From positions 1 through 25,138 of IMG/VR virus record IMGVR_UViG_3300023296_000563: a stretch of DNA of 25,138 nucleotides; one strand, 5' to 3'. The DNA comes from a virus. Made by a program: the position numbers and the translations under genes. Below the pieces are notes generated by a model, which made no database searches, was not told where the DNA came from, and saw only the letters and a program-made list of their open reading frames with translations. Positions 3,905 to 21,546 of this stretch are shown piece by piece; the stretch's first letter is position 1; the number at the start of each line of letters is the position of its first letter.

Positions 3905-4653
3905 AAAATTTTGTTTGTGTATGTACCGGCAACAAATATGGTTTAGAATATGTTGATAAACTTTACAACATGGTTATGCGCCATTCTACAGATGTAAAGT
4001 TTCACGTTATCACAGACAGTAAAAAAGAATGGCAAGAAAATATACATCAAATTATTGTGACGCCTGTGTACCAAACTTGGTGGAATAAAATCCATATGTT
4101 TCGCGACGACATAGGCCTTGAAGGCCAAGTGCTGTTTATGGATTTAGATGTAGTGATCATACGAAACATAGATCATCTTTGGGATTTTGAAGGCAATGCA
4201 TTTGTTATCATTCAAGACTTTAACAGATGCAGAATAAAAAATTATCATGTGCGTAATTCATCAGTAATGAAATTTGTTGCTGGCAAGGAAGTGCATGTAT
4301 GGAATAAATTTAAAGAAGATCCTTTTGGTATTATTAAAAAATATAGAGGCGATCAAGATTACTTAACAGCACTGTATAGAGATGGAAAAATTTGGCCTCA
4401 TAATTGGGTAATGTCATACAAGTGGGAAATTGGTCTAGAAGAAGGAGAAAAACGCAACAGTCCACATGACAAATTTGTCACAGAAAGAATAACAAGAGAA
4501 AAAGTTATTACAATACAAAATGGCAAGAAAATTGAAACAGAAAGAGTTAAAAAATTTAATCTGCCAGATGATTGTGCAGTAATGGTGTTTCACGGCAAAC
4601 CAAATCCTGCACAAATTACTAAAGACCCATTGGTGTTGGAGAACTGGAGATAA
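3901..4653 (+). CDS. Glycosyltransferase with DxD motif
   Basis: A 250-residue protein from the ATG at 3901, which overlaps the upstream stop in ATGA; a longer in-frame extension to 3844 lies wholly inside the upstream gene and is unlikely. VLFMDLDVVIIRNIDHLWDF holds Asp81-x-Asp83, and TWWNKIHMFRDD precedes it, a pattern frequent in GT-A proteins annotated from marine phages. GDQDYLTALYRDG downstream resembles the second conserved metal/acceptor region of GT8-like proteins. It probably acts in the same pathway as the three genes before it. The C-terminal VFHGKPNP again matches the HGxxKP-type C-terminal metal ligand of GT8 enzymes. Confidence 0.72.
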   Translation: MKNFVCVCTGNKYGLEYVDKLYNMVMRHSTDVKFHVITDSKKEWQENIHQIIVTPVYQTWWNKIHMFRDDIGLEGQVLFMDLDVVIIRNIDHLWDFEGNAFVIIQDFNRCRIKNYHVRNSSVMKFVAGKEVHVWNKFKEDPFGIIKKYRGDQDYLTALYRDGKIWPHNWVMSYKWEIGLEEGEKRNSPHDKFVTERITREKVITIQNGKKIETERVKKFNLPDDCAVMVFHGKPNPAQITKDPLVLENWR

Positions 4654-4660
4654 TTAAAAC

Positions 4661-5161
4661 ATGTCACTGTTTGAATTTAATGATTATGGAGTAGAGCATT
4701 CAACTGTACCAACAGCAGAAGTATACATTACCAATGTAGAAGATTCATTTTCTATTACTCCGTTGAACCAATACATAGACAACAGACGTGTTATATTGAT
4801 TGGCATACCAGGAGCATTTACTCCTACCTGCACAGAGAAACATCTGCCAGGATTCCTAGATTCTGAAGATAAATTTTATGCCAAAGGTGTAGATGAAATT
4901 ATGTGTCTAAGTGTTAATGATGTGCATGTTATGACTGCGTTTGATGATTACATAAATTCAGAAGGTGGTCAAATTACCATGGCAGCTGATCCTTATGGTA
5001 ACATTGCCAAGCAATTAAATCTGTTGATAGAAAAAGATCATTTAGGCATGCGTATGCAAAGATTTGTTGCAATATGTAAAGATGGAAAAATAATCAAAAT
5101 GCTTGTAGATGAAAAAGGTCTAGATGTTTCTTCTGCAGAAAACTGTTTGAAGTTGCTATGA
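4661..5161 (+). CDS. Peroxiredoxin, Prx5/AhpC-TSA redoxin family
   Basis: A 166-residue thiol peroxidase that would reduce H2O2 or organic peroxides. The active site is PGAFTPTCTEKHLPGF, with peroxidatic Cys57 inside the required P-x-x-x-T-x-x-C pattern; the supporting Arg is likely in LGMRMQRFV. The length matches bacterial Prx5 enzymes. Other cysteines are in EIMCLSV, VAICKDG and, close to the C-terminus, SSAENCLKLL. The last could act as a resolving cysteine, though its position is a few residues later than in the atypical 2-Cys human Prx5. The gene follows the glycosyltransferases by 7 nt and overlaps the next gene by ATGA, so it is co-expressed with the glycan genes. Phage-encoded peroxiredoxin could protect the infected cell or virus enzymes from oxidative stress; this role is inferred. 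Confidence 0.9.
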   Translation: MSLFEFNDYGVEHSTVPTAEVYITNVEDSFSITPLNQYIDNRRVILIGIPGAFTPTCTEKHLPGFLDSEDKFYAKGVDEIMCLSVNDVHVMTAFDDYINSEGGQITMAADPYGNIAKQLNLLIEKDHLGMRMQRFVAICKDGKIIKMLVDEKGLDVSSAENCLKLL

Positions 5162-5847
5162 CATTATCCACTTACGAGGGCGAAGAAATAATTGCAAGTA
5201 TTGTGATTAAGCAAGGTAAAAAATATTTTAACAAAGTGTGGATGCCAAGAACTGTTTTTAATGATCCACAAAACAAAGACGCATATATTTTAGGCAACGG
5301 CGAATCAAGAAAAACATTTGATCTATATTCATTACCACAGGACACATATGGTTGCAATGCTCTGTACAGAAATTATACACCAGACTTTTTGGTTTCTGTA
5401 GATAGAAAAATTTACAAAGAAATTATAGACAGCGAGTATGAACAAAATAATATTGTGTATACCAACCATAACAATTTGACAAAGATTGGAGGCAATGCAC
5501 ATTTGATTCCAGCAAATCCACATCAAGGAGCAGGGCCTACAGCAATGCAAATTGCCATACATGATGGACATACGAATTTGATATGCATCGGTTTTGACTG
5601 TGGCCGAGACGGCCCTAATAACAATGTGTACAAAGACACAAATGGTTATAACACAGCAGAAACAGTAGTGCATCAAACTGTGTGGGCATCGCAAATACAT
5701 GGTATCATGAAGGCCAATCCAAAGATTACATTCACCTTTGTAGAAGGCGATTTACCATCATATTTCTTTGATCTTGACAACTGTAAAGCAATATCATATA
5801 CTGAATTAAGTACACACATAAATAATGGAAATGAGCAAACTACCTGA
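5158..5847 (+). CDS. GT42/MptE-like (DUF115-like) protein
   Basis: A 229-residue protein that overlaps the peroxiredoxin gene by ATGA. It carries AYILGNGESRKTFDLYSLP (residues 42-60), YGCNALYRNYTPDFLVSVD, and later GAGPTAMQIAIHDGHTNLICIGFDCG. This order (GNGxS, then CN-x-x-Y, then a Gly-rich helix followed by an IGFD strand) resembles the nucleotide-binding core of GT42 sialyltransferases and of the MptE/DUF115 fold. It therefore probably binds a nucleotide-activated sugar or a pterin-type substrate. Being in the glycan operon favours the glycosyltransferase reading. The C-terminus overlaps the next gene by 23 nt. Confidence 0.5.
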   Translation: MTLSTYEGEEIIASIVIKQGKKYFNKVWMPRTVFNDPQNKDAYILGNGESRKTFDLYSLPQDTYGCNALYRNYTPDFLVSVDRKIYKEIIDSEYEQNNIVYTNHNNLTKIGGNAHLIPANPHQGAGPTAMQIAIHDGHTNLICIGFDCGRDGPNNNVYKDTNGYNTAETVVHQTVWASQIHGIMKANPKITFTFVEGDLPSYFFDLDNCKAISYTELSTHINNGNEQTT

Positions 5848-6193
5848 ATCAATAAAAATAGGTTGGAAAGACGTCCGGATTGAAAAGGTTAAAACATCCT
5901 TTATAAAAAATAATTCTGACTACTGGGGACAATATGTTGCTCGTGAAAGCAAAATTGAAATCCAAGAAGAAGCAAAAGGCATAGATGTTGCTAATACTTT
6001 GTTGCATGAAATCATACATGCAATTGTGTATCACTCATCAATGAACTTAGAAGGCGGCCCACTCAAAGACGAGTATGCAGAAGAACACGTAGTAAACTCT
6101 ATGACCAATTGGTTAATGGGTGTGTTCAAAGACAATCCATGGTTATTAGACACTCTCAAAGAAACCATACATCCAAAAAACTCCAAAAAATAA
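5825..6193 (+). CDS. Small zincin-like metallopeptidase
   Basis: A 122-residue protein with LLHEIIHAIVYHSSM, giving the zinc-binding HExxH motif at residues 61-65 (catalytic Glu62). A downstream acidic segment, YAEEHVVNSMTNWL, could provide the third ligand (Glu or His), as in SprT-like or ImmA/IrrE-like single-domain zincins. There is no signal peptide, so it should act in the cytoplasm. A second ATG two codons in (5831) is an equally possible start. Targets could be host proteins or a repressor, but nothing in the sequence identifies one. The 3' end abuts a strong promoter for the next gene. Confidence 0.65.
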   Translation: MEMSKLPESIKIGWKDVRIEKVKTSFIKNNSDYWGQYVARESKIEIQEEAKGIDVANTLLHEIIHAIVYHSSMNLEGGPLKDEYAEEHVVNSMTNWLMGVFKDNPWLLDTLKETIHPKNSKK

Positions 6194-10014: not shown

Positions 10015-10201
10015 ACCAGAGTGTCCTAAGTGCGAATCTTTCTTAGGTGATAACGGAAGATGTAAAAACTGCGAAACATTAGAACTATTTGCTTTAGGAT
10101 TAAAAATATCAAGAGCACAGAAAAAAGAGAAACTCGAATTAGAATGGGACGTTGAACCAACTAATAAACCCGGCGGAGTAGGCAGAAGAAAACTTAATTA
10201 A
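9998..10201 (+). CDS. Small zinc-ribbon protein
   Basis: A 67-residue protein starting inside the end of the gp62-like gene. Cys9-x-x-Cys12 and Cys22-x-x-Cys25 form a compact zinc ribbon; the rest is charged with a short helix (AQKKEKLELEW). Its last seven codons plus the stop lie in the left copy of the 24-bp direct repeat that brackets sufB. The right copy encodes the same tail with Asp in place of the final Asn, showing that the gene's natural 3' end has been duplicated by the sufB insertion. It may bind nucleic acid or another phage protein; the function is unknown. Confidence 0.75.
   Translation: MESTNKPECPKCESFLGDNGRCKNCETLELFALGLKISRAQKKEKLELEWDVEPTNKPGGVGRRKLN
10178..10201 (+). repeat. 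24-bp direct repeat, left copy (sufB cassette)
   Basis: Starts GTAGGCAGAAGAAAACTT and ends ATTAA. It matches 11713-11736 at 23 of 24 positions (A versus G at position 19). It encodes the C-terminus and stop codon of the zinc-ribbon protein. The distance between copies is 1535 bp. Confidence 0.92.
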
Positions 10202-10258: not shown

Positions 10259-11716
10259 ATGTCAGCAACAGAACAAACAATCAAACAAGTCAATAAACTA
10301 GGATCATCTGATTATAAGTATGGATTTTCTTCTGATATTGAGAGTATCCAGGCTCCAAAAGGCTTAAATGAAGAGGTTGTAAGATTTATTTCTAAGCAAA
10401 AAAATGAGCCTGAATGGATGCTTGAATGGAGATTGAAAGCTTTTAGCGTATTTAATAAGCTTAAAAAACCAGATTGGGCAAAGTTAAATTTCCCAGAAAT
10501 TGATTTTCAAGATTACTACTATTACTCAGCTCCTAAAAGCATGAAAGATAAGCCTAAGTCATTAGATGAGATTGATCCGGAAATTTTAAAAACGTATGAA
10601 AAACTCGGTATTCCAATTCAAGAACAAAAAATTTTATCAGGGGTGGCTGTTGATGTAGTTTTGGATTCAGTTTCTATTGCTACAACTTATAAAAAACAAT
10701 TAAGTGAACTTGGTATAATATTTTGTCCTATATCTGAAGCAATTCAGGAACATCCAGATTTAATAAAAAAATATTTAGGAAGCGTTATACCTGTATCTGA
10801 CCATTCTTTTGCAGCTTTAAATTCAGCTGTATTTACTGATGGTTCTTTTGTTTATATTCCCGAGAATGTTCGTTGCCCTGTTGAGCTCTCTACTTACTTT
10901 AGAATTAACGCAATCAATACTGGTCAATTTGAAAGAACTTTAATAATTGCTGATAAAAATAGCTATGTTAGTTATTTAGAAGGCTGTACAGCTCCAATGA
11001 GAGATGAAAATCAATTGCATGCAGCCAATGTAGAACTAATAGCGTTAGACAACGCTGAAATTAAATATTCAACTGTTCAAAACTGGTATCCTGGAGATAA
11101 AGAGGGCAAGGGCGGAATATATAATTTTGTTACTAAACGTGGTGCTTGTAGAGGCGTAAATTCAAAAATTTCTTGGACACAAGTAGAAACTGGCTCTGCC
11201 ATTACTTGGAAATATCCAAGCTGTATATTGCAAGGAGATAATTCTAAAGGTGAGTTTTACTCTGTAGCGATTACAAATAATTTCCAACAGGCAGATACAG
11301 GAACAAAAATGATTCATATTGGAAAAAATACAAGTAGCAAAATCATCTCTAAAGGAATTTCAGCGGGTAATGCAAGTAACACTTATAGAGGCCTAGTAAA
11401 AATTCAATCATCCGCTACTAATGCAAGAAATTTTACCCAATGTGATTCACTTCTAATTGGTAATGAATGTGGAGCTCACACAGTTCCATACATTGAATCT
11501 TCTAATAGTGGGGCTCAAGTAGAACATGAGGCTACAACCTCGAAAATTAATGAAGATCAACTTTTTTATTGTCAACAAAGAGGATTATCAAATGAGGAAG
11601 CTATAGGTTTAATTGTAAATGGCTTTTGCAAGGAAGTTTTACAACACCTTCCTATGGAATTTGCAGTAGAAGCTCAAAAGTTAGTAAGTATAAGTTTAGA
11701 AGGTAGTGTTGGGTAG
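10259..11716 (+). CDS. sufB: SufB, Fe-S cluster assembly scaffold
   Basis: SufB is the scaffold subunit of SufBC2D, on which Fe-S clusters are built using sulfur from SufS/SufE and energy from SufC. This copy is complete at 485 residues (E. coli about 495). The N-terminal domain ([12 protein letters not shown]), the beta-helix core ([37 protein letters not shown]) and the C-terminus ([40 protein letters not shown], ending SLEGSVG) are all intact. Cys395 and Glu422-His423-Glu424 correspond to the E. coli residues Cys405 and 432-434 needed for cluster formation. No sufC, sufD or sufS is nearby, so it must work with host partners. By eye its codon use differs from neighbours: few CTG/GTG codons and more GCT, TTT and TCT. 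Its stop codon TAG is formed by the first bases of the right repeat copy, so the cargo ends exactly at the repeat. Confidence 0.96.
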
Positions 11717-11736
11717 GCAGAAGAAAACTTGATTAA
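11713..11736 (+). repeat. 24-bp direct repeat, right copy (sufB cassette)
   Basis: Second copy of the repeat at 10178-10201. It supplies the sufB stop codon at its left end, and it contains TTGATT, the -35 element of the promoter for the next gene. Read in the zinc-ribbon frame, it encodes VGRRKLD followed by stop, that is, the ancestral 3' end of that gene. Confidence 0.92.
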
Positions 11737-17176: not shown

Positions 17177-17734
17177 ATGGAAATAAATCTAACTAACAAA
17201 ACAGTTTTTAAAGACAGTGTACACATGTTTAGAGATGCAGTAGATCCTATAGTTGCACAAAAGATACTTTTACAATTGGGTATAGATTATTCTTTGAAGC
17301 ACTTCGAGCCTAAACAAAAATTAGACAGTGATATTTTTACATATAACTTTGAACAACTCATGACACTGAATAACGATATAAAAACGTATGTGTACAGTGA
17401 TGACTTTCATAAGTTGGTGTCTGGGCAAACAGGCATTGAGGTGTCAAAGACTGTGTGTTGTTGGGCAAGTGCTTACAGTAAAGGACACTATCTTACTCCA
17501 CACACTGATGCAGTAAAGGATAGAAAAGTAGCCTATATATTTTATTTTAATAAAGAATGGCGACCACACTGGGGTGGTAACATTGCATTCGAGAAAGATG
17601 ATCACTGGATTATGATTCCTCCCATGCACGGAAGCATGATGCTGTTTGATGTGAGAGATAGTAAAAACAGACACATGGTTACTCCTGTGTGGTCAGATGA
17701 AACTAGATATGCAATTACAGGGTGGCTTGTTTGA
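17177..17734 (+). CDS. 2-oxoglutarate/Fe(II)-dependent oxygenase
   Basis: A 185-residue oxygenase of the prolyl-4-hydroxylase-like group. It has His109-x-Asp111 (TPHTDAVKDR), distal His166 (RHMVTPV) and Arg177 (TRYAITGWL) for binding iron and 2-oxoglutarate, with the typical core GGNIAFEKDD and HGSMMLFDV between. Such enzymes hydroxylate protein side chains or nucleic-acid bases and are common in marine T4-like phages. The ATG abuts the previous stop codon. The stop codon TGA lies in a perfect 12-bp palindrome containing GATC just before dam. Confidence 0.88.
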   Translation: MEINLTNKTVFKDSVHMFRDAVDPIVAQKILLQLGIDYSLKHFEPKQKLDSDIFTYNFEQLMTLNNDIKTYVYSDDFHKLVSGQTGIEVSKTVCCWASAYSKGHYLTPHTDAVKDRKVAYIFYFNKEWRPHWGGNIAFEKDDHWIMIPPMHGSMMLFDVRDSKNRHMVTPVWSDETRYAITGWLV

Positions 17735-17740
17735 TCAAAC
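17729..17740. repeat. 12-bp palindrome with a GATC site before dam
   Basis: GTTTGATCAAAC is a perfect palindrome around a Dam target. It covers the stop codon of the oxygenase and lies 8 nt before the chosen dam start. It could be a regulator site sensitive to methylation, but this is speculative. Confidence 0.5.
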
Positions 17741-17748
17741 CATTTAAA

Positions 17749-18588
17749 ATGAGAGTAAAAACGCCGTTGAGATATCCTGGAGGGAAATCAAGAGCAATAA
17801 AGTTTTTAGATACACATTTGCCTAAAAATAGATTTGCCAGATACTGTGAACCTTTCCTAGGTGGTGGATCAATGGCATTACATATCACACAGAAACATCC
17901 TGATGTTGATGTTTGGGTTAATGATGCACACTGGCCTCTATATGCTTTTTGGCATCAATTAAAATGCAGAGGTGAAGAGTTGGCTGTGGAACTGGAAGAG
18001 ATAAAATACCAAACCATGGCCTATCCCGACGCTCAAAGAGAATTGTTTAAAAAAGCCAAACAGGGGTTAGAGTCTGATGATGAATATGAAGCAGGCAAAA
18101 ACTTTTTTATAGTTAACAAGTGTGGCTTTAGTGGGTTGGCATCTACGTTTTCGCAACAAGCATATGATGGCAACTTCACACTAAACAATATAAGAAAGTT
18201 ACGTGGAGTTATTCCTATTATAAAAGATTGGGTCATTACCAATTATGATTACAAAGATGTTTGTTTTGGTGTCTGGGGCAACCCTGATTACGGAGATCAA
18301 TTCACATTCTTAGATCCCCCATATGACATCAAATCATTTCTGTATGGCAAAGATGGTAATTGGCATCGAGGATTTGATCATGCACAATTTCATGAACAGG
18401 TTAAAAAAATCGAAGGCGATTGGATGATCACATATAATTCTAATCCAAACATTTTAACCCTATGGGATGCATTTACATTATTAGAATGGGACCTAACATA
18501 TACTATGAGATCTACAGGTACATACCGCGACGATCAAAAGAAAAGAAAAGAACTATTGATAACCAATTACAAAAGTGATATAATATAA
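17749..18588 (+). CDS. dam: DNA adenine methyltransferase (Dam)
   Basis: Transfers a methyl group from S-adenosylmethionine to adenine N6, most likely in GATC. The 279-residue protein has TPLRYPGGKSRA and EPFLGGGSMA for AdoMet binding and FLDPPYDIKSF with the catalytic DPPY; the segment CGFSGLASTFSQ fits the Dam target-recognition region. T4 Dam has 259 residues. I prefer the ATG at 17749, because homologues start just before the YPGGK motif; a GTG at 17722 would add nine residues. The last 15 codons lie inside the left copy of the 55-bp direct repeat. It can protect phage DNA or time replication and packaging. Confidence 0.93.
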   Translation: MRVKTPLRYPGGKSRAIKFLDTHLPKNRFARYCEPFLGGGSMALHITQKHPDVDVWVNDAHWPLYAFWHQLKCRGEELAVELEEIKYQTMAYPDAQRELFKKAKQGLESDDEYEAGKNFFIVNKCGFSGLASTFSQQAYDGNFTLNNIRKLRGVIPIIKDWVITNYDYKDVCFGVWGNPDYGDQFTFLDPPYDIKSFLYGKDGNWHRGFDHAQFHEQVKKIEGDWMITYNSNPNILTLWDAFTLLEWDLTYTMRSTGTYRDDQKKRKELLITNYKSDII

Positions 18589-18599
18589 AAGTGCAACAG
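18545..18599 (+). repeat. 55-bp perfect direct repeat, left copy
   Basis: Identical to 20091-20145 at all 55 positions; distance 1546 bp. It begins inside the end of dam, runs through the stop codon and a complete promoter, and ends with GTGCAACAG, the first three codons of the gp41 helicase. Bases 18600-18615 continue to resemble the helicase 5' end (they can be read as ACAGAACTGCAG against ACAGAATTACAG) after a 10-nt gap, indicating a decayed helicase start. Confidence 0.97.
18556..18584 (+). promoter_or_regulatory. Promoter in left repeat copy, drives the methyltransferase fusion
   Basis: TTGATA (18556-18561), 17 bp, TATAAT (18579-18584). The predicted start is at about 18591, giving a leader of about 31 nt before the ATG at 18622. 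Confidence 0.75.
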
Positions 18600-18621
18600 A
18601 ACTGCAGATTAAAGTTTACGT

Positions 18622-20085
18622 ATGGCAACTGAAAAATTAAAATTTAAATTAGAACTATACGCAACAGTGTGGGATAAACCACCAGTTGCTAATATAAAAA
18701 TTAATGAGAAAAGTTATTTCAACAAAGAAATTACTAGCACTGAATATAAACCAACTATTATAGAATTTGAACACGAACTCGAAGACGGACTCGAAGTGAG
18801 TAAATGCAATCTCATTATAGACAGATTAAATAAAGATGCAGGGCAAGTAGTAATTAAAGATGGAAAAATTATTAAAGATCAATTATTACATATTAAATCT
18901 ATAGAAATTAATGAAATTGATATTGGGTCTTTATTATATCAAGGTGTGTATAGACCTGAATATCCAGAACCGTGGGCAACACAACAAGCAGAAGCAGGCA
19001 ACAAACTGCCAGAAACTGTTAAAAATATAACTCAGTTGGGTCATAACGGCACTTGGACCTTCACATGCTCATCTAGTCCACCTAATATAAGTGGGTTAAG
19101 TGAGTGGCGTCATGGTTGCAATCGTAAAGATTTACAAAAAAAAGTTAAGAAATATATTTTGTTGCAGAATGATGGTCCGCGTAATACGTGGTATCTTAAA
19201 TCATTTGCAGACTGTGTCGAAGATAAAAATTGTGTTGAAATAGGAACTGGACTAGGTATTCTCAGTTCAATTGCAATAGGTTTCAATCCTAAATCTATAA
19301 CTGCATATGAAAGAGATAATGAAGCATATAAAATAGCATCACACTGTTTGAATAAAAAAATCAATGTAAGACATGATACTATAGAAAATTTATATCAATC
19401 CCCGTTGGATCCAACACCTGATATCATATTTCATGAAATAATGGGTGACAGAATATGGGACGAAGGATGTAATTTATTTCTGCCGTACGGTATAGATAAC
19501 TGGCAAAAACCTACATGGTGTGCTCTCCCAGGTGAATTTATTACAGAGATTCATGTGTCTAAGGAAAAGTCAAAGTTTTCAAATGAAACAGATCCTAACG
19601 TTAGACCACATCCAAGTAGAAGTATTACGATAGATCCAGGTGTGTCTGTAGACCTTGAATGGTTACAAAAATTAAAAAATACAGTATATCCTATGTTTGA
19701 CTGTCATGATGAGAACCTTCGATTGTTCAACACCGACTTTGACTCTGCGGTATTCAAGGATTCGAAACCGGTTGCAAAATTTTTGCTGAATGTAAACAAA
19801 GGCACAATAACAAAGAATGATACAGAAGTGATTAGTTTTTCTGATATCACGTGGAGCAAAGATACAGCAATTGAATTAAATTTTGATGTTGAAAAAGATT
19901 CATTTATATTTTTTAGATTTGGAATCAAACATAAAACATCAATATTGTATTTAGATCAAGGTGATAGGTGGGGTGTAGTAGAGAACGTGTTACAAGTGAA
20001 AAAAGATACCAATGTGAAAATTGATCAAAAACTAAGGAATGGCGAAATTGGTATTGAAGTAGAAGGCAAACGCCATATTATATAG
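18622..20085 (+). CDS. Carbohydrate-binding/virion-type domain fused to a PRMT-like methyltransferase
   Basis: A 487-residue two-part protein. Residues 5-155 are a beta-sandwich of the carbohydrate-binding type common in marine phage structural proteins (KLELYATVWDKP, INEIDIGSLLYQGVYRPEYPEPWATQQ, NGTWTFTC). Residues 185-330 are a class I methyltransferase: DGPRNTWYL, motif I VEIGTGLGIL (205-214), acidic Glu230 in AYERDNEA, and HEIMGDRIWDE (271-281). The last resembles the double-Glu loop of protein arginine methyltransferases (E-x-M-G-x-x-x-x-x-x-E form). The remaining C-terminal portion is beta-rich like the PRMT barrel. It lies between copies of the 55-bp repeat and ends 5 nt before the right copy, so it is an acquired gene. 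It probably methylates a protein at the surface to which the N-terminal domain binds; the substrate is unknown. Confidence 0.75.
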   Translation: MATEKLKFKLELYATVWDKPPVANIKINEKSYFNKEITSTEYKPTIIEFEHELEDGLEVSKCNLIIDRLNKDAGQVVIKDGKIIKDQLLHIKSIEINEIDIGSLLYQGVYRPEYPEPWATQQAEAGNKLPETVKNITQLGHNGTWTFTCSSSPPNISGLSEWRHGCNRKDLQKKVKKYILLQNDGPRNTWYLKSFADCVEDKNCVEIGTGLGILSSIAIGFNPKSITAYERDNEAYKIASHCLNKKINVRHDTIENLYQSPLDPTPDIIFHEIMGDRIWDEGCNLFLPYGIDNWQKPTWCALPGEFITEIHVSKEKSKFSNETDPNVRPHPSRSITIDPGVSVDLEWLQKLKNTVYPMFDCHDENLRLFNTDFDSAVFKDSKPVAKFLLNVNKGTITKNDTEVISFSDITWSKDTAIELNFDVEKDSFIFFRFGIKHKTSILYLDQGDRWGVVENVLQVKKDTNVKIDQKLRNGEIGIEVEGKRHII

Positions 20086-20090
20086 TATAT

Positions 20091-20145
20091 GAAAAGAACT
20101 ATTGATAACCAATTACAAAAGTGATATAATATAAAAGTGCAACAG
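20091..20145 (+). repeat. 55-bp perfect direct repeat, right copy
   Basis: Second copy of the dam-gp41 junction. Read from the left it contains the end of a dam gene (EELL-like codons ending SDII and stop in the appropriate frame), a promoter and the first three codons of the functional helicase. Recombination between the copies would delete the methyltransferase gene and restore a direct dam-gp41 junction. Confidence 0.97.
20102..20130 (+). promoter_or_regulatory. Promoter of gp41 helicase in right repeat copy
   Basis: TTGATA (20102-20107), 17 bp, TATAAT (20125-20130). The expected start is at 20137, exactly on the GTG start codon of the helicase, so the transcript should be leaderless. There is no Shine-Dalgarno sequence between the box and the GTG. 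Confidence 0.75.
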
Positions 20146-21546
20146 TATACAACAGAATTACAGAAATTATTTTTAGAAATGTTTCTAGCAGATGCAGAGT
20201 CATTTGTCAGAGCACAAAACATATTTAGATATTCACACTATGATGCATCTTTGAGAGATGTGGCCAAGTTTGTGCATGATTATGCACAAGAGTACAAAAC
20301 ACTGCCTGATGTTGAAATTGTTAATGCAAAAACTGGTGGACAACTGCAATCGGCTGCCGACATTGATCCAAAACACTTTGATTGGTTTCTTGACGAGTAT
20401 GAAAGTTTTGCTAGACACAAGGAATTAGAATCTGCCATACTTGCATCTGCAGACTTGCTGGAGAAGGGCGACTATGGCCCAGTAGAGAAGTTAATCAAGG
20501 ATGCAGTGCAAATTGGTCTAACCAAGGACCTGGGTATTGATTACTTCGCTGATCCTAAAGCAAGATTGCAGGCTCTCAAAGACAACAATGGTGTAATGCC
20601 AACTGGCTGGAAAAACTTTGATAAGAAGTTGTTCGGAGGATTCAACAGAGGCGAACTTAACATTTTTGCAGGAGGATCAGGTGCAGGTAAGAGTTTGTTC
20701 TTGCAGAATCTTGCAGTGAACTATGCTGAACAGGGCATGAACTGTGTTTACATAACACTAGAGTTAAGTGAGAATTTGACTGCGATGAGAATGGATGCTA
20801 TGATGACTGATACTCCGGCCCGAGACATATTCAAAGACCTAGACACAGTTGACCTAAAAATAAAGATGAAAGCAAAGACCTTGGGCAAAGTTAGAATCAA
20901 ATATATTCCAAGTGGCGCAACTGCTGTTGATGTTAGATCATACATTAAAGAATTTGAAATACAACATGGCATAAAGTGTGATGTGGTGCTGGTTGATTAT
21001 CTAGACTTACTGATGCCGATGAATAAAAAAGTATCGCCAAGTGATCTATTTGTGAAAGACAAGTATGTGTCTGAAGAATTGAGAAACTTAGCAGTTGACT
21101 TGAATGCAATATTGATCACAGCATCACAGTTGAACAGAGCCAGTGTTGAGGAAATAGAATTTGATCACTCTCACATCTCAGGCGGACTATCTAAGATACA
21201 AACAGCAGACAATGTGATTGGTATCTTTACATCTCGAGCAATGAGAGAGCGTGGCAAGTATCAGATACAGTTCATGAAAACAAGATCCAGTTCTGGTGTT
21301 GGTCACAAAGTAGACCTAGAGTTTAATGTGGACACACTGAGAATACTCGATGTGGCCGAGGAAGAAGAGCATCAATCATTTAAGAAACAGTCGTCTTCTA
21401 TATACAGCAATCTAAAAAGAACATCCACAGTAACAGAAGAACCAAAAGAAGAACACAAAGCCAGTGGTGACAACATAGGCAAAGTAACAGCCAACGTTGA
21501 ATCAAGCAAGATAAAAGAACTTATCCGTAATCTAAATAAAAAATAG
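20137..21546 (+). CDS. Replicative DNA helicase, gp41-like
   Basis: DnaB-family hexameric helicase that unwinds DNA at the phage replication fork and carries the primase. It has 469 residues (T4 gp41 is 475). The N-terminal domain is helical (residues 1-120), followed by PTGWKNFDKKLFGGFNRGEL, Walker A GGSGAGKS (179-186), catalytic Glu in TLELSEN, Walker B VVLVDYLDLL, and the hairpin/arginine-finger segment ISGGLSKIQTADNVIGI. The C-terminal 50 residues are Lys/Glu/Ser-rich and probably flexible, ending with SSKIKELIRNLNKK. The GTG start is chosen because the alignment with the family begins there; a possible ATG is at 20179. The start codons are duplicated in the upstream repeat copy. Confidence 0.95.
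   Translation: MQQYTTELQKLFLEMFLADAESFVRAQNIFRYSHYDASLRDVAKFVHDYAQEYKTLPDVEIVNAKTGGQLQSAADIDPKHFDWFLDEYESFARHKELESAILASADLLEKGDYGPVEKLIKDAVQIGLTKDLGIDYFADPKARLQALKDNNGVMPTGWKNFDKKLFGGFNRGELNIFAGGSGAGKSLFLQNLAVNYAEQGMNCVYITLELSENLTAMRMDAMMTDTPARDIFKDLDTVDLKIKMKAKTLGKVRIKYIPSGATAVDVRSYIKEFEIQHGIKCDVVLVDYLDLLMPMNKKVSPSDLFVKDKYVSEELRNLAVDLNAILITASQLNRASVEEIEFDHSHISGGLSKIQTADNVIGIFTSRAMRERGKYQIQFMKTRSSSGVGHKVDLEFNVDTLRILDVAEEEEHQSFKKQSSSIYSNLKRTSTVTEEPKEEHKASGDNIGKVTANVESSKIKELIRNLNKK

Follow-up and report, generated by a model that had tools for sequence, protein, structure and literature searches.

The window (the whole stretch of DNA analysed, 25,138 bases of an IMG/VR virus record) comes from a marine T4-like phage, judging by its gene content. 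Alongside a UvsW-like helicase and a primase, it encodes a gp41-like helicase that shares 54% identity with its counterpart in Pseudomonas phage PA5oct, as well as a Dam methylase and numerous glycosyltransferase-like proteins; some of these names are presumptive, assigned by us from reading the sequence itself. All viral records with which it was compared are metagenomic fragments. A gene for a Dam-type adenine methyltransferase (17722..18588, plus strand) and one for the gp41-like replicative helicase (20137..21546, plus strand) lie to the left and right of the open reading frame studied here, which spans 18622..20085 on the same strand and specifies 487 aa without an in-frame stop.

Our analysis confirms that two separable modules are joined in this one real reading frame: an N-terminal domain predicted to be a CBM60-like beta-sandwich (aa 1-149, 18622..19068), a joint or linker (aa 150-164, 19069..19113), and a methyltransferase region assigned to the PRMT superfamily (aa 165-487, 19114..20085), the last being homologous end to end with proteins of two other viral contigs, L002 and L056. 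Motifs are readily recognised in the methyltransferase region, all on the plus strand. NDGPRN (aa 183-188, 19168..19185), a PRMT7/9-type ND..RN motif, precedes motif I, VEIGTGLG (aa 205-212, 19234..19257), the putative SAM-binding element, and E230 is the acidic residue after strand 2. In the loop HEIMGDRIWDE (19432..19464), E281 follows E272 at a distance of nine residues; alignments by phmmer and hmmsearch put this loop in register with the PRMT7 loop SEIFGTMMLGE, which bears out the double-Glu assignment of the first-pass annotation. Further downstream, GDRW (19960..19971) resembles a THW loop and takes the position of the GHW found in L002, L056 and bacterial PRMT-like proteins. L002 and L056 (61-65% identity) retain the two Glu as well as NDxxRN and motif I; the Glu pair is invariant in 3/3 members, and motif I and E230 are kept in relatives. 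The motif and fold matches of the fusion protein are far beyond chance. In both halves dN is well below dS (0.24 against 0.92 for the methyltransferase half, window to L002; 0.14 against 0.40 for the N-terminal half, window to the viral contig L003), which indicates purifying selection.

The N-terminal module

The N-terminal 149 residues have relatives at 52 other loci in viral contigs, with up to 74% identity; the family representatives that were read are stand-alone proteins, mostly of ~160 aa, and a methyltransferase match was found at none of the 52 loci. An AlphaFold model of the L003 member (~74% identical to the window, 37 sequences) reached a pLDDT of 92.9. In structure comparison it matched best the CBM60-type modules 2xhh (Z 10.8) and 2xfd (Z 10.7), the next best scoring 5.5, and Foldseek likewise returned CBM60 at rank 1 (probability 1.00, E 5e-3). 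These matches support the carbohydrate-binding module proposed in the first pass, with a predicted CBM60 beta-sandwich fold. CBM60 is a Ca-dependent carbohydrate-binding module. Since the Pfam CBM families matched neither the window protein nor its relatives, and identity to vCBM60 is 6%, we write of a CBM60-like fold rather than of a CBM60 member. The phage family and vCBM60 (2xfd, 2xhh) share the predicted fold over ~110 residues, but vCBM60 is a xylanase appendage whereas the phage family is a stand-alone phage protein with an additional C-terminal helix. This helix, conserved as SPFYMWLLENLY at the end of the stand-alone proteins, is missing from the fusion, whose joint directly follows the domain's final strand as placed by the L003 model. 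A frameshift hiding the lost tail was considered and rejected: frame +2 gives a vague ST*YKWVK* and then stops, which is unconvincing. To our knowledge no CBM60-like N-terminal domain is known from PRMTs.

The module had also been called virion-type, and here the genomic context points elsewhere: it matches no structural PHROG family, its neighbours in the window are Dam and the helicase, and its relatives adjoin a replicative helicase gene or a nucleotidyltransferase-like gene (a name that we gave from reading the sequence). Packaging of the enzyme in the particle is similarly unsupported, though not disproved, by a locus that has a sigma70-type promoter-like sequence and replication-gene neighbours and no structural-gene context.

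Two further observations concern this family. Among several of the records L034-L053 the CBM60-like gene often lies beside the gp41 helicase gene and a gene for a 281-aa protein, and in L036 (333-1499) the domain is duplicated in tandem within one frame of ~388 residues.

Filled and empty sites at the Dam/helicase boundary

The fusion gene is swap-in cargo. Contigs L061 and L059, near-identical to the window, run from Dam directly into the helicase and lack both the fusion gene and the whole 1491-bp insert around it (18600..20090, plus strand); L061 is 98.4% identical to the window over 6.9 kb to the left of the cargo and 98.3% over 2.1 kb to its right. In the window the insert lies between two identical copies of a perfect 55-bp direct repeat (18545..18599 and 20091..20145, both plus strand), of which the empty allele of L061 and L059 has one. 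The repeat is the gene boundary itself, holding the last codons and stop of Dam, a sigma70-type promoter and the first three codons of the helicase; its promoter-like TTGATA-N17-TATAAT (18556..18584, plus strand, in the left copy upstream of the fusion gene) is a consensus match only, at 11/12 positions with an extended -10. The right junction recurs in L060, a contig from another sample that starts inside the methyltransferase and runs via the right repeat into the helicase, identical at 215/215 bases.

Because the duplicated boundary carries a promoter, cargo and helicase both retain one, and recombination between the 55-bp repeats would excise the cargo cleanly. We infer transcription of the cargo from the repeat promoter and, for the order of insertion and deletion, either gain through a single crossover with boundary-carrying DNA or later loss by repeat recombination. 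The window has a second insertion of this kind within its 25 kb, likewise framed by a duplicated gene boundary: a sufB-like gene (10259-11716) between 24-bp repeats (10178-10201 and 11713-11736, 23/24 identical). This gene is absent at the corresponding place in L061, and in L091, L096, L103 and others it directly follows that for the helicase; it therefore moves.

Promoter-bearing mobile cassettes of T4-type phages (PeSLs; Arbiol 2010, Comeau 2014, as cited in PMC4503421) are the nearest known parallel in that, as far as that citing account describes them, a promoter-bearing element borders swapped early genes in both systems. The window repeat differs from PeSLs as outlined there in being a duplicated gene boundary of 55 bp whose ends are coding, of which two copies flank one cargo, and in that no strong stem-loop was found in the repeat region. 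Comparison of filled with empty sites shows cleanly the gain and loss of cargo genes in T4-like phages.

The fusion of a CBM60-like domain with a methyltransferase is known from the window contig only, and this one contig is the basis both for the left junction and for the fusion itself. The same fusion was sought in other phages, as the first-pass annotation had proposed, and none came to light in viral contigs searched with the whole protein, the catalytic part, the N-terminal part and sub-alignments; the halves stand alone elsewhere, the methyltransferase as a separate protein in L002 (349 aa) and L056 (329 aa). Nor did two close-range scans covering 84,980 genomes of bacteria and archaea turn up another fusion or any cellular relative. 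Being confined to the window contig, the fusion is not a conserved design. Its single occurrence, and the loss exactly at the joint of the tail that the CBM-like family conserves at its C-terminus, could suggest that the assembly is chimeric here or that two separate genes meet in a non-functional junction. We regard this as quite improbable, given that the frame stays open for 487 codons, that the right side (methyltransferase tail, repeat and helicase) is found unchanged in the other sample, that the junction on the left is formed by an identical copy of that repeat, that the joint sits just past the last strand of the CBM-like domain, and that the linker has no in-frame ATG or GTG at the expected methyltransferase start.

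The helicase, used as query, had 80 relatives. In L133 (2191-5891), and also in L134-L138, the gp41 helicase gene is interrupted at residue 183 by an apparent split intein (GGSG/C...HN/TGKS); the two halves in L133 are separated by a 606-residue open frame, an arrangement that we take to resemble known fractured gp41 genes.

Kinship of the methyltransferase half

By sequence comparison, residues ~165-487 are the catalytic part of a PRMT-superfamily methyltransferase. A phmmer search of all solved structures returned PRMT7 4m36 (E 3.8e-5), and a profile of the three members (window, L002 and L056) reached a best E of 2.4e-8 in the PDB, where 34 of its 36 matches are named PRMT. The other two are 8rbk, labelled MGC151858 and aligning like PRMT9, and 1wy7, which is the sole non-arginine-methyltransferase of the set if 8rbk is counted as an arginine methyltransferase. 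GAMT structures are absent from these matches. With hhalign the same profile gave P 6e-11 over 166 columns against bacterial PRMT-like proteins and P 6e-14 against a group of phage PRMT-like proteins (the L148 group, below); an unrelated generic class I methyltransferase profile, used as control, gave a much weaker P of 1.6e-4 over 21 aligned columns. The PRMT-like character claimed in the first pass is thus sustained.

The Trypanosoma brucei PRMT7 (4m36) and PRMT9 (6pdm, 7rbq) have in common with the window enzyme the ND..RN motif, motif I, the register of the double-Glu loop and the order of elements, although the S of their SE is H in the window enzyme and only the enzyme's first ~130 residues can be aligned, the barrel half being unalignable. 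A profile comparison of the C-terminal ~180 residues with the PRMT barrel gave no alignment (P 0.21), the Pfam PRMT_C model has no match in the window protein, and the THW-loop place reads DRW in the window as against GHW in L002 and L056. Structure prediction, suggested as a check on both domains, served for the N-terminal family; for the methyltransferase half, with an alignment of three sequences, AlphaFold gave a pLDDT of 35 and the model was not used. The best Pfam match of the window protein, PrmA, falls below the cut-off and was not accepted as its identity; two bacterial proteins with a PRMT_C barrel match PrmA as well, so the weak PrmA match is no argument against PRMT kinship. In a tree of catalytic domains the window clade stands alone on a very long branch, and we therefore name no close ancestor.

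The two bacterial PRMT-like proteins (WP_207183737.1 and WP_222987434.1, both annotated 'ribosomal protein L11 methyltransferase') share with the window enzyme ND..RN, motif I and two Glu nine apart, at 17-19% identity; they differ from it in having a recognisable barrel (PRMT_C), and carry GHW or SHW near the end. Bacterial PRMT-like genes are located in metabolic gene clusters that also encode redox enzymes and ATP-grasp proteins. Bacterial plasmid clusters of this sort were seen in L139 and L140, with a PRMT-like gene (annotated L11 methyltransferase), an iron-containing redox enzyme, a Rieske protein and an ATP-grasp gene.

The first-pass annotation had expected such enzymes to be rare in phages, and indeed neither the window protein nor a PRMT-like protein of bacteria has a match in 50,697 phage genome records, and a literature search found no paper on a phage PRMT. 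A bacterial profile nevertheless uncovered further phage PRMT-like enzymes, in L146, L147, L150 and the L148/L151-L154 group, stand-alone proteins of 280-312 aa that share an LND.xRN.WY-type motif and motif I with the window enzyme; the second Glu is lost in the L148/L151-L154 group. We know of no earlier description of any of these proteins (L146, L147, L148, L150, L151-L154). Several divergent PRMT-like lineages are thus present in uncultivated phages.

Amidinotransferase-like neighbours and the likely acceptor

An amidinotransferase-like gene lies immediately upstream of the PRMT-like gene in L147 (2821-3939), L150 (2576-3625), L151 (683-1855), L153 (2799-3956) and L154 (2808-3971), and one position further away in L148 (1391-2560) and L152 (1582-2739). 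The L148 protein matches HsvA (E 4.8e-8) and glycine amidinotransferase (E 9e-5). Neighbours of this type possibly form a guanidino-compound pathway with the PRMT-like enzymes. Amidinotransferase-like genes are, however, frequent in large phages (9/20 records tested), so the linkage is suggestive only; none was found in the window, L002 or L056 records, which are fragments.

By established PRMT chemistry, the double Glu argues for a guanidinium acceptor. We consider it, on balance, probable that the gene is a swap-in cargo encoding a SAM-dependent, PRMT-superfamily enzyme that methylates a guanidino nitrogen, with E272 and E281 holding the guanidinium, and that its N-terminus acquired, through an in-frame fusion, a CBM60-like domain that occurs elsewhere in phages as a free protein. 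Guanidine as the substrate is what we infer from these residues. Several points weigh against the explanation as a whole: the missing amidinotransferase in the records of the window clade, the loss of the second Glu in the amidinotransferase-linked group that is closest by profile, the very long branch, and a C-terminal part that has neither a barrel alignment nor a confident model. As to the acceptor, the amidinotransferase linkage of the distant phage relatives makes a guanidino small molecule at least as likely as protein arginine. We tentatively put a small guanidino compound or guanidino-sugar slightly ahead, with protein arginine a real possibility and any other acceptor less probable than either.

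A small-molecule guanidine N-methyltransferase, acting in a creatine-like or other guanidino-metabolite pathway of the phage, is a plausible though far from assured role. It would fit the amidinotransferase-like neighbours of three divergent phage PRMT-like groups, and it has precedents: BlsL, whose similarity to PRMT and GAMT is low, acts as a methyltransferase on a small guanidino intermediate of an antibiotic (PMC5572114), and a global ocean survey reports virus-encoded guanidinoacetate N-methyltransferase to be the most virus-enriched gene that it found (PMC11360552). The window clade without such a neighbour, the commonness of amidinotransferase-like genes in large phages and the lack of GAMT among the PDB matches speak against it. 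A true protein arginine methyltransferase, modifying phage or host proteins during infection without being packaged, seems somewhat unlikely. Its nearest solved structures are PRMT7, PRMT9 and PRMT2, the double Glu is in register, and dimethyl-arginine has been reported in structural proteins of marine phages, where host enzymes were held responsible (PMC13288928); but the redox and ATP-grasp genes around the bacterial relatives and the amidinotransferases adjoining several phage relatives suggest small guanidino substrates, and a barrel and dimerisation arm are not demonstrated in the window enzyme. More doubtful is descent from a PRMT-like fold to a different acceptor such as an amine or carboxylate, which the long branch, the second Glu lost in one group of phage relatives and the C-terminal half without an assigned fold would allow, but which sits poorly with both Glu and ND..RN being invariant in the window clade.

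If active, guanidino-N methyltransferases of this kind would be candidates for a guanidine methylation that phages themselves encode and that uses a PRMT-type site, and would alter infected-cell proteins or feed the creatine-like pathway already suspected from the ocean survey (PMC11360552). Much more speculatively, and with little probability, large marine phages might share an undescribed family of PRMT-like guanidine methyltransferases, in part paired with amidinotransferases, through which guanidino groups on surface glycans or metabolites would be formed and methylated; the sugar-binding module added here would then serve glycan targeting, and the genes would spread as promoter-repeat cassettes. 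One contig of the phage set, L147, carries two PRMT-like genes in tandem (3959-4888 and 4927-5865), with ~33% mutual identity.
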